A program made the position numbers and the translations under genes. From assembly GCA_016196035.1 (NCBI GenBank), contig JACPYM010000117.1, positions 124,001-188,000 on the forward strand: a stretch of 64,000 nt of DNA, written 5' to 3'. Source of the stretch: Acidobacteriota bacterium (GTDB taxonomy: Bacteria; Acidobacteriota; Blastocatellia; RBC074). Below are positions 43,755 to 53,692 of this stretch, in pieces (the stretch's first letter is position 1; the number at the start of each line of letters is the position of its first letter). Under the pieces are notes generated by a model. It made no database searches. It had not been told where the DNA came from and saw only the letters and a program-made list of their open reading frames with translations.

Positions 43755-43768
43755 TTTCCACATCTCCG

Positions 43769-43943
43769 CCCCAACGGGGCAGAATAAGGTAGCCAGGGGG
43801 CAACGCCCCTGGTGAAATGGCCGATATACCTAAGCCCTGAAAGGGCGTCGTAGCCACGGTTATTTCGCCCTTTCAGGGCTTCACTAATTTTGCCGCGCTC
43901 CCAGGGCGTTGCCCTGGGCTACCGCATTTCGCCCCGTTGGGGC
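43769..43943. repeat. REP-like palindromic module cluster upstream of priA
   Basis: Nested palindromes form a symmetrical cluster: GCCCCAACGGGGC at the left end and CGCCCCGTTGGGGC at the right, CCAGGGGGCAACGCCCCTGG and CCCAGGGCGTTGCCCTGGG next inside, and AGCCCTGAAAGGGCG facing CGCCCTTTCAGGGCT in the centre. Each can form its own hairpin. The right end stops 14 bp before the priA start. The same modules occur at 47783-48074, beside the RAYT gene. Confidence 0.9.
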
Positions 43944-43957
43944 TATGGGCCAGCGCA

Positions 43958-46426
<2,469 letters not shown>

Positions 46427-46495
46427 TTCCAACAACTGAAATACAGCACACCGCCTACAGTTCGTAGCAAACATCTACCGACGGAAGGAGTGCCT

Positions 46496-47782
46496 ATGAG
46501 CAAGATTTCAACAGAGCATTTTTTCCCAATCTCTGTTTACTTTCGCAAAAAGAAAGAGGAGTTGAAAAAGGTATTTTCTGAACAGGGTGGTAAAGCCACC
46601 TTTGAGTCAGGGAAGAAATGGACTGGGGCCAGCAAGCTGCTCGAGCAGGCAAAAGCGACAGGTCAAAAATTGCCTATCCTTTTCAGTGCTGCTGATGGCT
46701 ACAACGATCTGATTTACTGGGCAGTTCTTGAAAGCATATCGGTTCAGCCAGATGCCAAAGGTAAATTCCCCACGACTCTCAAAATTGTTGATCTGACCCC
46801 TCTACCCGAAGATATTCCATTAAATTCTCTACGCAAGGTTGGTACTGATCAGCATTTTTCTGATGACATGCTTTCAGGCTATTGCTTTTGCCAAACTCCG
46901 GCGTTTCTTCAGCACCAAATTCACTATTGGGTGATCAAAGGAAGGCCAAGCGATAATGACTTCGAGAGCTGGCTAATACCGGGCACAGAAGACACTTGGC
47001 GTACAAGTAGGCCACCGCAATCTTGGTCTCCTGGCGACCGTCTTTTTTTCTGGATGTCATCCCCGGCTCGCTGTGTTGTTGGGCTAGGCGTTCTAAAAGG
47101 GTTGCACAAGAAGAAGGACAAATCCGGAAATAACTTATTCGATGTTGAGTATCTAACCTATCCACTTGCGAATCGTCCCTTTATTGATGATCTTCGGCTG
47201 AATGCTAAACTCTTTGACGCTTCATTCCTCAAATCTGGTCCAGCATGGACTGTTTACTCGCTGACGGAAGAACAAGGGAAAGAGCTTTACCAGATTGTTG
47301 TCGGTCAAAACCCGGAAATTAATCTTGGATGGAATACCCGTACACCTTTGATTCAGCGAGCCAGAGAGTTTGAAGCGGTAGATTTAGCAGAGCCTCCGGC
47401 TCGTGTGATCACCACAACCAGCCGCGTCATTCGAGATACTGTTAAAGCAAGGCAAATGAAATTGAAATACGGCTATGGCTGTCAGGTCTGCCGCTTGAAG
47501 ATTGAGTTTGGGCCGGGCCGATTCTATGTGGAAGCTCACCATGTACGTCCGCTAGGTGGTAACCATAAAGGATGCGATACAGAAGATAACTTGATGATTT
47601 TATGCCCTACCCATCACGCGATGTTTGATCTGGGCATTCCATATTTCGTTTCACCAAATCGAATTCGCATATACAACCAAGAGTACGATCTGCTATGCAA
47701 CCACAAGCTTTCAGATGACAATGTCAGCTATCACAATGAGTTTCTTTATAACGGTGTTTTGAATAGTAGCCGCCCGAATTGA
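46496..47782 (+). CDS. EVE-HNH endonuclease, predicted modification-dependent restriction enzyme
   Basis: The ATG at 46496 has GGAAGGAG 5 nt upstream, giving 428 residues. The middle region (about 141-265) is an EVE domain: HYWVIKGRPSDNDFESWLIP, WSPGDRLFFWMSSPARCVVG. EVE belongs to the PUA-like fold and reads modified bases. The C-terminal HNH nuclease (325-375) shows CQVCRLKIEFG, VEAHHVRPLGGNHKG, DNLMILCPTHHAMFD, with both CxxC pairs and the active histidines. Residues 1-120 form a further domain I cannot place. EVE-HNH enzymes such as VcaM4I cut DNA with modified cytosine, so a Type IV-like defence role is inferred. Codons are visibly more AT-rich than in priA, and there is no methyltransferase alongside. 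Confidence 0.88.
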   Translation: MSKISTEHFFPISVYFRKKKEELKKVFSEQGGKATFESGKKWTGASKLLEQAKATGQKLPILFSAADGYNDLIYWAVLESISVQPDAKGKFPTTLKIVDLTPLPEDIPLNSLRKVGTDQHFSDDMLSGYCFCQTPAFLQHQIHYWVIKGRPSDNDFESWLIPGTEDTWRTSRPPQSWSPGDRLFFWMSSPARCVVGLGVLKGLHKKKDKSGNNLFDVEYLTYPLANRPFIDDLRLNAKLFDASFLKSGPAWTVYSLTEEQGKELYQIVVGQNPEINLGWNTRTPLIQRAREFEAVDLAEPPARVITTTSRVIRDTVKARQMKLKYGYGCQVCRLKIEFGPGRFYVEAHHVRPLGGNHKGCDTEDNLMILCPTHHAMFDLGIPYFVSPNRIRIYNQEYDLLCNHKLSDDNVSYHNEFLYNGVLNSSRPN

Positions 47783-48074
47783 AGCCCCAACGGGGCGCAA
47801 TAAAACTGCCTGGGCCGCCAAATCATTCTGACCATTTCGCCCTTTCAGGGCTTGTCACTCGTTGCCAATGCGTCCAGGGGCGACGCTCCGCTCTGCCCCT
47901 GGCTATCGTATTGCCGCCCCGTTGGGGCTCGTGGAGAGCTTCCCTTTCTACAAAAAATGCTGCCACATGATTCAGGTTATTTCGCCCTCTCAGGGCTTGT
48001 CACTCTTTGCCGATGCAGCCAGGGGCGGCGCGTTGCTCTGCCCCTGGCTATCGTATGACCGCCCCGTTGGGGCT
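47783..48074. repeat. REP-like palindromic module cluster between EVE-HNH and RAYT
   Basis: The cluster contains GCCCCAACGGGGC, CGCCCTTTCAGGGCT, a CCAGGGGCGACGCTCC-CTGCCCCTGG hairpin, CGCCCCGTTGGGGC, CGCCCTCTCAGGGCT, a second CCAGGGGCGGC-CTGCCCCTGG hairpin and a final CGCCCCGTTGGGGC. The modules are those of 43769-43943, here partly tandem. They are REP-like in shape and lie directly upstream of a REP-associated transposase. Confidence 0.9.
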
Positions 48075-48115
48075 TATGGGGAATTGTTCTTCCCATTCAA
48101 AAAAGGAGGTCGCTC

Positions 48116-48568
48116 ATGCCGCAATCGCTTTCCTCAATCCTGATCCATCTGGTTTTCAGCACCAAACACCGCGAACCTTGGTTGACGCCGGAGATCGAAA
48201 CGGAACTGCATCCGTATCTGGCGACCGTGTTCAAAGGCTGTGATTCGCCTGCCTTGATCATTAACGGCGACCGCGATCACATCCACGCGCTTTTCACGCT
48301 CGCGCGCACGTGGACGGTTGCCGACGTGGTCGAAGAGGTAAAGAAACGCTCGTCGAAATGGATAAAAACGACGGATGCCGGGCTGAAACAGTTCCAATGG
48401 CAGGTGGGCTACGGTGCTTTTTCGGTTAGCCAATCACAGGTCGAACAGGTCAGGCGCTACATTGCCAATCAAAAGGCACACCATCGGCAACAGCCGTTTC
48501 AAGACGAATACCGGGCGTTGTTGCAAAAATACGGGATCGAATTTGACGAGAAATACGTTTGGGATTGA
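48116..48568 (+). CDS. REP-associated tyrosine transposase (RAYT / IS200-like Y1 transposase)
   Basis: The 150-residue protein matches the Y1_Tnp family: SSILIHLVFSTKHREPWL at the start, then ALIINGDRDHIHALFTLART with the HUH motif (H55 and H57), and the helix VEQVRRYIANQKAHHRQQPF with the catalytic tyrosine near residue 115. AAAGGAGGTCG gives a strong ribosome-binding site. HUH Y1 enzymes of this kind nick single-stranded hairpins. The immediate upstream cluster of palindromic modules, and its relative at 43769, make it likely that this is a domesticated transposase that mobilises REP-like hairpins. No classical IS200/605 left and right ends are seen. The reading frame is intact. Confidence 0.9.
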   Translation: MPQSLSSILIHLVFSTKHREPWLTPEIETELHPYLATVFKGCDSPALIINGDRDHIHALFTLARTWTVADVVEEVKKRSSKWIKTTDAGLKQFQWQVGYGAFSVSQSQVEQVRRYIANQKAHHRQQPFQDEYRALLQKYGIEFDEKYVWD

Positions 48569-49423: not shown

Positions 49424-52400
49424 TCACTTGAATCCGGCCTGACGCAACAACGCCGCATACCGCGCATCGTCGCGCAACCCATCCAGCAGCGGGTCAACCG
49501 CGATAAAATTGAAACTATTCGTGCGGGCCGCCTCGGCCTTGGCGAGCCAGGTGAAGGCTTGCTCGCGGTCGCCCAACAACGCGTAATCCAGGGCAATTTC
49601 GTAGGTGAGGTAATCTCCCGCGCGCCGCAATTCCGCCGGGGCGAGCGCGCGTTGCAAGGTGGCGCGCGCTTCGGCTTGGCGCTGCCCGCTGGCTTGCACC
49701 TGGGCGAGAATGGCGGGCCATTCGACGGTCGCGTTGCTGAAACTGCGTTCGCGCTGATAGGCGGCGAGCGCGTCGTCATATTTGCCCTGGGCTTGATAAA
49801 TCCAGCGTTGCACGCGGTGCGCGGCGACGAGTCCGGCATCGAGTTCGAGCGCGCGGCGCGTCCAATCGAGCGCCGCGTCATATTGGCGCGCGTAATACCA
49901 AACCACGGCGGCGGCGGTTTTGATGATGGCCGAACGCGGGTCAAGCCCTTCGGCAAAACGAATCTGTTCTTGCGCTTCGGCAAAACGGCCCTGCGCCGTC
50001 AGCATCAGCGCCAGCCAGTGATGCGCGGTCGGATAGCTGGGATTCAAGGCGATGGCGCGCCGCAATTCGCGTTCGGCCCCGGCGCGGTCGCGGTCGCACC
50101 AGAAGAGCACGTAAGCCAGCGAGGCGTGCGGCTCGGCCAATTGATCATCCAGCGCCAGCGCGCGTTGGGCGTTTGTGCGCGCGCGTTCGCAACTTTCGCG
50201 CGGCGGCAACGCGCCGTACCAATGCAGCAGCGCGTAACTATCGGCCAGCCCGGCGTAGGCCAGCGCGAACTTGTCGTCCTTTTGCAGCGCGCGTTCGAAC
50301 TGGCTGATGGCCTCGCGCAAGGCGGGCACCGCGCGTTTGGCGAAATGGTAGCGCCCGACCAGATACAACTGATAAGCCTCGCGGTCGGTGGTGTAGCGTT
50401 TGTTGAGTTGCAACAGTTCCTTGCCGCTGACCTCGAATTTCATTTCGCCCAGCACGCGTTCGCTCAGGATGGATTGCGCGCGCGCGATTTCGGCGTCGGG
50501 CAGTGTGAATTGCGCCGCCCACAACTGGCGATTGGCACTGGCACTGAACATTTGCGCGTCCAGCACGATCTGGCCGCCCGCGCGGCGCAACATGCCGCTG
50601 ACGACGTATTCGACCTGCTGTTCGCGCGCAACTTGCGCGGGCGCTGGCTCACTCGGCGCGCTGCGTTGGGGTGGGCGCACGGTCAATTGTTTGATCTGGC
50701 TGAGCTGACGTATGAGCGCGTCGGCCAGCCCCACGCCCAGCGACTCGTCCGCGCCCTGGCTGCGAAAGGGCAGCACAGCGATGGTATTGGCGGATTTGGA
50801 CAGCTTGACGATTTTGACCGTGGTCGTGGATTTCAAATAGAAAAAGGCGGCCACGCCAAGCACGATGAGCACGGCGGCGAGCAGCCACCTGGGTACGCGA
50901 GCATCCTTGCTCGCGGCTTTGGCAGCCACGCCCTTCGGCATCAATGGGTCTACCGCCGAGACCGCAGGCAAGGATGCCTGCGTACCCAGGCTTTCCGCCA
51001 CCGTCTCTGCCTCTTCCGCATTCACCTGAAACGGATGCAGCCGCGCCAGCAATTCACCGAAGCGCGGGTCTGACCGCAAAGCGTCGAGTTGCGGATCAAC
51101 CTGCATTTCCAGCGCCCACGATTCGCGGCGTTCGCAAGACAGGCGCAAACAATCAAAGGCCGCCTCGTATTCGCCCAGCGCCGTGTGCAGGCGCGCGAAA
51201 AAGTAATGCGGCACGTAACGCTGCTGGGCAATGGCGCGCAATTCATTGAGCACCACCTGCGCTTCGCTGCGTTTGCCAGAAACGGCCAAGACGTGCGCCA
51301 GCACCCATAACGACAGCGGCGCGCGATTGGTCAAGGCGGCGGCTTGGCGCGCGGCGGCAAGCGCTTCGTCGGGCCGACCAACGCGCGGATAGAGCCAGCC
51401 TTGCGCCTGAAAGGCCAGGTAATAGTTCGGCTCTAATTCGAGCGCGCGTTGGTTGTACCGGTACGCCTCGCGATGCTGGCGCGCGTTGTGCAGGATGAAG
51501 GCCATCATCGTGTGCAAGGCGGGTGATTGCGGATCAATGCGCAAGGCGCGCCGCATTTCGTTGATAGCGTCGGTGTGCTGGCCTTGCGAACTATAAAAAT
51601 GGGCGAGCCATTCGTGCGCCTGCGCGTAGTTGTCATTCAACTCGATGGCGCGCTGCATCAGCCGCTGGCTCGCGGCGTAGTCCCAGTCATACGAGCGAAT
51701 CGCCAGCGCCAGCGAGACATGGGCTTCGGCCAGTTTAGAGTCGAGTTCGATGGCGCGCTGGGCGGCCTGCTTGGCCGCTTGAAAGCATTCTTCGGGCGGC
51801 AGCACGGCGGTGATGCCCATGAAATTGAAATAGTCGGCCACGCCGCTGTAGGCCGCCGCGAATTCCGGATCAATCGCCAGCGCTTCGTAAAAACTGGTGA
51901 GCGCGCGCGCCAGACCTTCGTCGGTGTAAGTGTGCCAGTAATAACGCCCGCGCAGATAGGCTTCATACGCTTCGGGTTTGTCGGTGCCGCGTTTGGCGAT
52001 TTGCGCGCGCTCTTCGCCGGAAAGATTGCGGGCGATTTCGTGCGCAACCTGTTCGGCCAATGAATCCTGCAAGGACAATAGGTCGGCACAACATTCATCG
52101 AATTGCGCGGCCCATTGCGGCGCGGCGCTGGCGACTTCGATCAATTGCACGGTGACGCGGATGCGGTCGCCGGTTTGCAAAAAGCGTCCGTCCAGCACGT
52201 GTGTGACATTCAAGTCGCGGCCCGCGCTGACAGCATCGTGCTCAGGACTGGCATAGCGCACCACCGAAGCCGTGGGGCGCACGAGCAGGCTGCGCAGATT
52301 GCTCAAGCGGGTGATCAGCGCGTCAGCCAGCCCGACACCCAGGAAGTTTTGCGTCGCGCCCGGTTCGTGCTGCAACGCTTTGAGCGGCAGGATGGCAATC

Positions 52401-53692
52401 GAATGGCGGTGGTGTATGCCAGGGACGGTTTGTTCAACGCCGCTGACGGTGACCGGTGGCGCGGCGACAGGCAGCCCCTGCAACCAGTGTTGGATGTCGG
52501 TGGCGAATTCAGCGACGGTGGCATAACGCTGCGCCGAGGTTTTGCTGAGCGCCTTGAGCACGATGGCGTCCAACCCGCTGGCCAGCGTGGCGCTCAGCGT
52601 TTCGGGCGTGGTGGCGCGTTGGCGGCTGACCAGTTCGGGTGTCAGCGTGACCGTTTGGCCGAAAGTCGGCGAATAAATTTCTTCGGTCTGTTTGATCACG
52701 GTGCTGGGGCGCGTGGGCGTCTCTTCGATAATCAGGCGTGCGACTTCGTGCAACAGTTTGTGGCGCAACTGATAGGGCCGCCGCCCCGTCAGCAATTCAT
52801 AAAGCAGCACACCCAGGCTGTATTGATCGCTGGCCGCCGTGACCGCTTCGCCGCGCATCTGTTCGGGGCTGGCGTATTCGGGCGTCATCATTTGCATGCC
52901 CGTGACGGTGTGTTCGCCGGTGTCGAGCAAGGGAGTGGATTTGAGGATGCGCGCGATGCCGAAATCCAGCAGCTTGGCCATGCCCCCTTCCCCCTCCGCC
53001 AAAGGCGTGACCAGGATGTTGCCGGGTTTGATGTCGCGGTGGATGACTTGCTGTTGATGCGCGTATTCGATGGCATTGCAAACCTGCACAAACAACTTCA
53101 ACCGTTCAGTCAGCGGCAACTGACGCTCGTCGCAAAAACGGGTTAGCGGCTGGCCTTCGATGTATTCCATCACCAGATAGGGCACGCCATCTTCGGTCGT
53201 GCCGCCGTCCAGCAGGCGGGCGATGTTGGGATGATCGAAACTGGCGAGGATTTGGCGTTCGCGGCGAAAGCGGCGCAGCACGATTTCGCTATCCACGCCG
53301 CGCCGCACCAGTTTAATCGCCACCTGTTTGCGAAACTCGTTGTCGGCGCGCCAGGCCAAATAGACTTCGCCCATGCCGCCGCGCCCCAGTTCGCGCTCGA
53401 TGCGATAAGCGCCGACCTGCCGTCCGATCATCTCTCTTGTCTGGGAGTGTGAGACAGGCTGATCCGTCAGCGTGCTGGCCTTGTCCAGCAATTTCGTGGC
53501 TTGCGAAACCAGGGGCGGGGCTTCGATGAAATCACCCGCGGCGGCATCGGAGCGCAACAGGCGCTCCAACGTCTCGCGCAACTCGGCATCCGCGCCACAC
53601 ACGCTGTCCAGAAAGGCTGCCCGCGCGGCCTCGGGCATATCCAGCGCCGCATTGAATAACTCTTCGATTTGGGACCAGCGTTCGGGAGTCAT
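49424..53692 (-). CDS. Ser/Thr protein kinase with two TolB-like/TPR modules
   Basis: The 1422-residue protein starts with the TPERWSQIEELFNAALDMP leader common in acidobacterial kinases. The kinase domain (about 92-370) has YRIERELGRGGMGEVYLA, VIHRDIKPGNILV, LLDFGIARI and a PEYASPEQMRGE activation segment. Then come a TolB/FlgO-like domain (429-560), TPR repeats (570-890), a single membrane helix (934-952), a second TolB/FlgO-like domain (970-1080) and more TPR repeats (1090-1400). The two modules are alike and suggest internal duplication. The linker (about 901-935) is encoded by an interspersed 97-bp palindromic element. It follows the ECF sigma gene, so the pair probably forms a signalling unit. 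Confidence 0.93.
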   Translation of the reverse strand: MTPERWSQIEELFNAALDMPEAARAAFLDSVCGADAELRETLERLLRSDAAAGDFIEAPPLVSQATKLLDKASTLTDQPVSHSQTREMIGRQVGAYRIERELGRGGMGEVYLAWRADNEFRKQVAIKLVRRGVDSEIVLRRFRRERQILASFDHPNIARLLDGGTTEDGVPYLVMEYIEGQPLTRFCDERQLPLTERLKLFVQVCNAIEYAHQQQVIHRDIKPGNILVTPLAEGEGGMAKLLDFGIARILKSTPLLDTGEHTVTGMQMMTPEYASPEQMRGEAVTAASDQYSLGVLLYELLTGRRPYQLRHKLLHEVARLIIEETPTRPSTVIKQTEEIYSPTFGQTVTLTPELVSRQRATTPETLSATLASGLDAIVLKALSKTSAQRYATVAEFATDIQHWLQGLPVAAPPVTVSGVEQTVPGIHHRHSIAILPLKALQHEPGATQNFLGVGLADALITRLSNLRSLLVRPTASVVRYASPEHDAVSAGRDLNVTHVLDGRFLQTGDRIRVTVQLIEVASAAPQWAAQFDECCADLLSLQDSLAEQVAHEIARNLSGEERAQIAKRGTDKPEAYEAYLRGRYYWHTYTDEGLARALTSFYEALAIDPEFAAAYSGVADYFNFMGITAVLPPEECFQAAKQAAQRAIELDSKLAEAHVSLALAIRSYDWDYAASQRLMQRAIELNDNYAQAHEWLAHFYSSQGQHTDAINEMRRALRIDPQSPALHTMMAFILHNARQHREAYRYNQRALELEPNYYLAFQAQGWLYPRVGRPDEALAAARQAAALTNRAPLSLWVLAHVLAVSGKRSEAQVVLNELRAIAQQRYVPHYFFARLHTALGEYEAAFDCLRLSCERRESWALEMQVDPQLDALRSDPRFGELLARLHPFQVNAEEAETVAESLGTQASLPAVSAVDPLMPKGVAAKAASKDARVPRWLLAAVLIVLGVAAFFYLKSTTTVKIVKLSKSANTIAVLPFRSQGADESLGVGLADALIRQLSQIKQLTVRPPQRSAPSEPAPAQVAREQQVEYVVSGMLRRAGGQIVLDAQMFSASANRQLWAAQFTLPDAEIARAQSILSERVLGEMKFEVSGKELLQLNKRYTTDREAYQLYLVGRYHFAKRAVPALREAISQFERALQKDDKFALAYAGLADSYALLHWYGALPPRESCERARTNAQRALALDDQLAEPHASLAYVLFWCDRDRAGAERELRRAIALNPSYPTAHHWLALMLTAQGRFAEAQEQIRFAEGLDPRSAIIKTAAAVVWYYARQYDAALDWTRRALELDAGLVAAHRVQRWIYQAQGKYDDALAAYQRERSFSNATVEWPAILAQVQASGQRQAEARATLQRALAPAELRRAGDYLTYEIALDYALLGDREQAFTWLAKAEAARTNSFNFIAVDPLLDGLRDDARYAALLRQAGFK
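50891..50987. repeat. 97-bp palindromic element inside the kinase gene
   Basis: Terminal inverted repeats of 26 bp (50891-50916 and 50962-50987) match at 22 positions; the left one starts GGGTACGCGAGCATCCTTGC. The element is translated as part of the linker before the membrane helix (GTQASLPA and KDARVPRW are its ends). The reading frame remains open. It looks like a MITE-type or REP-like insertion accepted in a tolerant linker. Confidence 0.85.

Follow-up and report, generated by a model that had tools for sequence, protein, structure and literature searches.

A predicted modification-dependent nuclease with a PUA-like module ahead of its EVE and HNH domains, next to priA in an acidobacterial genome

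Beside priA in an acidobacterial genome lies a gene whose product we consider, with somewhat better than even confidence, to be a stand-alone Type IV (modification-dependent) restriction nuclease, with an EVE domain as reader, a TagI-type HNH domain as nuclease and an N-terminal module as second reader. The parts of this reading carry different weights: the protein probably cuts DNA in a modification-dependent manner, and the chances that its N-terminal module acts as a second reader seem to us about even. In mechanistic terms, the EVE domain would flip a modified base (a modified cytosine being the likeliest) out of the helix, and the C-terminal HNH domain, presumably dimeric like its relatives, would then cut nearby. 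The N-terminal module would contact that DNA too, either as a second reader, recognising another modification or a sequence context, or as an affinity module, such that cleavage would need two contacts. An anti-phage role may be supposed.

EVE-HNH enzymes and dual recognition domains in front of an HNH nuclease are already known; a tandem PUA-type architecture is uncommon. Reader domains determine the targets of Type IV enzymes and make useful tools for the mapping of DNA modification, and an unnamed PUA-type family of about 135 residues, found alone and with three kinds of effector, is a candidate new modified-base sensor. A tandem-reader nuclease, if that is what we have here, would show how such enzymes tighten their specificity.

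Table 1. Features of the nuclease gene and its surroundings, with positions in the window (the whole stretch of DNA analysed, 64,000 nucleotides)
Feature	Position	Strand	Remark
Upstream REP cluster	43768..43943	.	ahead of priA
priA	43937..46426	+	5' neighbour
Shine-Dalgarno AAGGAG (GGAAGGAG)	46485..46490	+	5 bases ahead of ATG 46496; from sequence
Whole gene, predicted PUA-like + EVE + HNH modification-dependent nuclease	46496..47782	+	428 aa
N-terminal module, unnamed family, predicted PUA-superfamily (YTH/EVE/ASCH-like) fold	46496..46906	+	residues 1-137
EVE domain	46925..47287	+	residues 144-264
Linker from EVE to nuclease	47288..47371	+	residues 265-292; by position; low-confidence model
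TagI-type HNH region	47372..47752	+	residues 293-419; HNH_2 core 329-380; H349, N365, H373/H374, D378
Downstream REP cluster	47784..48082	.	includes two 124-base copies, 83% alike
Y1 (IS200/RAYT-like) transposase	48116..48568	+	single-domain; adjoins downstream REP cluster

The nuclease and its EVE reader

The C-terminal region matches Pfam HNH_2 (E 1.1e-7) and, in the PDB, the sequence of TagI (6ghs; E 9e-14 over residues 293-419), and its catalytic H349, N365, H373/H374 and D378 are invariant across ten aligned sequences, as expected of the complete HNH nuclease, histidines kept, of the original prediction. EVE and HNH are both present, as proposed there; by sequence, the nuclease half is of the TagI (SRA-HNH) type, and the PDB sequence search with the protein did not bring up VcaM4I. 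Since plasmid and viral contigs carry this HNH type behind SRA domains, we regard it as a nuclease that habitually comes with PUA-superfamily readers; it also follows other unidentified N-termini, one of them with a faint EVE match. In three IMG/VR viral contigs (L058:2548-3387, L060:2446-3381 and L061:2446-3396), a TagI-type HNH is fused to short N-terminal domains of PUA/EVE-like appearance, the faint EVE match in one of them having an E of 0.18, and these may be viral EVE-HNH enzymes.

The EVE domain is confirmed at the level of sequence comparison, on its similarity to an EVE-McrB protein and on a profile alignment with canonical EVE proteins. In the first of these, residues 116-271 are similar pairwise (E 1e-9) to a protein whose own EVE is certain (1.4e-13); in the second, hhalign against nine canonical EVE proteins taken from related genomes gives 80% (E 1.5e-5) in a colinear alignment of 121 columns. 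The prediction of an EVE in front of the HNH thus holds, although the Pfam EVE match, which covers the whole profile, scores 16.3 bits (E 0.0098), below the 23-bit cut-off, and reaches E 0.0011 with the domain alone. An AlphaFold model of residues 130-428 has a pLDDT of about 50 in the EVE part, and is of low confidence because it was built without EVE relatives as input. A Pfam search up to E 10 gave no SAD_SRA match in the protein.

The N-terminal module and its predicted fold

The extra residues that had been noticed ahead of the EVE, about 137 of them, form a conserved domain that has no sequence match in Pfam, PHROGs or the PDB. Modelled by AlphaFold from five sequences, it is a compact domain (pLDDT 85, pTM 0.79), and the fold search proposed for these residues returned YTH, EVE and ASCH domains as top matches. 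By VIA-align, where even queries without a clear relative commonly reach a best Z of 7-8, the YTH domain of YTHDC2 gives a Z of 9.1 (116 residues, 3.7 Å) and the EVE proteins 1zce and 2eve give 8.6 and 8.3; by Foldseek, YTH is found at E 3e-4 and ASCH with a TM-score of 0.53, SRA being lower, and the top TM-scores are modest (0.41-0.53). We nevertheless give weight to these results because the match list consists almost wholly of PUA-superfamily domains and spans residues 3-142, and the model indicates that the module very probably has a PUA-superfamily fold, a five-stranded mixed beta-sheet pseudobarrel. Since the YTH and EVE Z values differ by less than 1, and are in effect tied, we claim the superfamily and not a family. 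A separate domain with this predicted fold agrees with the earlier suggestion of a possible second reader.

A second EVE arisen by internal duplication was considered and rejected, hhalign giving 2.9% against the protein's own EVE; against canonical EVE it gives 0.4%. With YTH domains, the module shares the predicted fold over residues 9-142, at an identity of only about 9%, and Pfam YTH finds no match at E up to 10. By eye, the order 'W..., helix, I.F.A..., L.Y.A.L' presumably resembles that of YTH, and the invariant W42 lies just ahead of a helix, a place that we take to correspond to the YTH cage, but the expected loop holds no conserved second cage aromatic. Archaeal YTH-McrB reads 6mA.

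The YTH matches also bear on the idea that modified RNA is the substrate of the enzyme, or that it is an abortive-infection nuclease that chooses its targets loosely. YTH domains that bind m6A-RNA head the fold matches, which is in its favour, but elsewhere this HNH type accompanies SRA domains, which sense DNA, and the EVE of the EVE-HNH enzyme VcaM4I binds DNA (PMC7897488), so that we consider this very improbable.

An independent module with several partners

Within the phylum, tblastn picked up the N-terminal region in three other genomes, there lacking both EVE and HNH, and further members were added by profiles and pattern scans. Some are standalone proteins of about 135 residues, at L007/L028 in the same family and at L029 (135 residues) and L038 in Desulfobacterota-like genomes. 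The Desulfobacterota-like copies have no clear defence neighbours save, in one genome, a nucleotidyltransferase (toxin-antitoxin-like) gene, a point against our preferred reading. Others are fused, either to a domain of the DUF488-N3 'active' clade (L003/L020; E 5.6e-37) or, at L005/L030 and L027/L031, to a domain of about 200 residues with a conserved E...D...EVK motif, a domain that also occurs free-standing in many bacteria, plasmids included. Judged by that motif, the latter domain is likely to be a PD-(D/E)XK-type nuclease; it weakly matches a PADLOC Type II methyl-directed nuclease (E 0.004). This E...D...EVK family (L101-L109, with plasmid matches H13-H26) is itself widespread and annotated merely as hypothetical.

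Because the N-terminal module is found on its own as well as joined to two other partners, a PD-(D/E)XK-type nuclease and DUF488-N3, it is an independent unit. In two Candidatus Aminicenantes contigs, the fusion with the PD-(D/E)XK-type domain adjoins restriction-modification genes, as would be expected of a specificity module: in L021 the neighbours are TdeIII, AIPR and a methyltransferase, and in L031 a different methyltransferase and a 407-residue open reading frame. L021/L030 and L031 are closely related and keep the fusion gene while the adjacent restriction-modification genes differ, as if modules had been swapped around it. The 407-residue frame (L031:2101-3324) lies between the N6/N4 methyltransferase and the fusion gene, is unmatched in Pfam at E 0.001 and is a candidate restriction partner.

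Searches with the full window protein of phages, of plasmids and, through a pattern scan, of GTDB contigs turned up neither close relatives nor its three-part order, these scans being samples, and a module-profile search of about 400 genomes of the phylum, likewise a sample and not proof of absence, did not find the order. For the N-terminal module itself, the pattern scan of GTDB contigs gave four loci only, and scans of viral contigs found no relatives.

Reader, passive module or enzyme?

Among seven members of the module family, the invariant residues include Y15, W42, F63, Y74, Y129, C132, T134 and P135. The window copy is the most divergent member, and because some ten positions conserved in its relatives are changed, its ligand pocket could be gone. 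This loss of conserved residues favours an ordinary EVE-HNH Type IV enzyme, in which the EVE alone decides and the module does not sense, serving instead in dimerisation, autoinhibition or general DNA affinity. There are also precedents: the PUA-like domain of HhiV4I (PUA-wH-HNH) is apparently not the modification sensor (PMC11037411), so that sensing cannot be taken for granted in a second PUA-type domain, and in VcaM4I the EVE and the linker helix restrain the nuclease (PMC7897488), an autoinhibition compatible with a non-sensing role. Against it, the occurrence of the module alone and with unrelated effectors favours ligand binding, and W42, F63, Y74 and Y129 are still invariant, so that we consider a non-sensing module possible, if doubtful.

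The module family might, alternatively, consist of ASCH/YqfB-like enzymes, whose task would be to remove a modified base or nucleotide or to edit it. This would fit the Foldseek matches to ASCH proteins, the polar T16, H19 and E67 conserved in the relatives, and the DUF488-N3 'active' clade as one fusion partner, but the window module has F16, K19 and D67, so that activity would be lost here, and the partners include nucleases, with which a reader makes more sense; we regard an enzyme as improbable. At the bolder end, the family could be a new Pfam-less PUA-superfamily reader, plugged into HNH, PD-(D/E)XK and DUF488-N3 effectors and sensing a base modification beyond the reach of SRA, EVE and YTH, the two readers then forming a two-key lock that cuts only doubly marked DNA; this we would call a long shot.

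Our preferred reading, a modification-dependent nuclease with two readers, can be set beside the known systems. VcaM4I, whose EVE flips 5mC or 5hmC into a pocket, likewise carries EVE, linker and C-terminal HNH in one chain, with no NTPase and no methyltransferase (PMC7897488). The window protein differs in its PUA-like domain of about 137 residues, which means that the EVE is not N-terminal, and in its HNH, which keeps the histidines but is TagI-like and shows no match to VcaM4I at the sequence level. TagI dimerises, and its nuclease domains together make up the site that binds DNA; with it and other SRA-HNH enzymes (PDB 6ghs; PMC6212794) the window protein shares a homologous HNH region, the reader being an EVE and an unnamed PUA-like domain in place of SRA. 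Two recognition domains stacked ahead of an HNH are also seen in ScoMcrA (SBD-SRA-HNH; PMC7461809) and in HhiV4I (PMC11037411), but the pairs in those enzymes differ in fold, whereas both domains of the window pair are predicted to be of the PUA superfamily.

The gene and its place in the genome

The gene is real, its open reading frame running from an ATG at 46496 to a stop at 47782 (428 codons), and it is single-copy in the 9.6 Mb genome; a sigma-70-like promoter was looked for at the gene and not found. At 45.4% GC (GC3 0.44), against 61% (GC3 0.78) for priA and 57.6% for the window, it is more AT-rich than priA, as had been stated, and has the lowest GC of the 1287-base segments tested over the 64 kb. 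It also stands without a methyltransferase, as originally described, PADLOC having found none in the ten neighbouring open reading frames scanned (38.3-58.0 kb).

Among ten same-family genomes (priA flanks L043-L053), the nuclease gene is absent 3' of priA wherever the flank is readable. In its stead we find GmrSD_N in G506 (E 2e-34), a Type IIG-like restriction-methylase in G275 and a toxin-antitoxin-like DUF433-DUF5615 pair in G504, with a DUF1016/YhcG nuclease one gene beyond the slot in G502. Read from translations, G503 has a start related to the G504 pair and then the contig end, G501 has dapF, G499, G500 and G235 have a sugar-isomerase-like gene, and G505 has nothing recognisable. Because the contents of the slot vary and include defence genes, defence genes in this family seem to land on the 3' side of priA, which is possibly a hot spot for them. 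Together, the foreign GC content and the variable slot support horizontal acquisition of the nuclease gene, in agreement with the earlier proposal.

The repeats on which that proposal also drew are a different matter. Two REP-like clusters do exist, but they enclose priA as well as the nuclease gene, and the 16-base REP core has 119 exact copies genome-wide, against 0 for a reversed control. The argument from the repeats is weak because they are genome-wide, enclose priA and, in one cluster, adjoin an IS200-like transposase; as the bracket of a mobile cassette we reject them, given their genome-wide spread and priA lying inside. The REP family and the Y1 transposase beside one of its clusters make up a RAYT-like pair in an acidobacterial genome. 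Further along, on the minus strand at 49424-53692, the window encodes a Ser/Thr kinase of 1422 residues that contains TPRs; an 'IAILPL/IAVLPF...LADALI' region, each time with TPRs after it, occurs twice in this protein.
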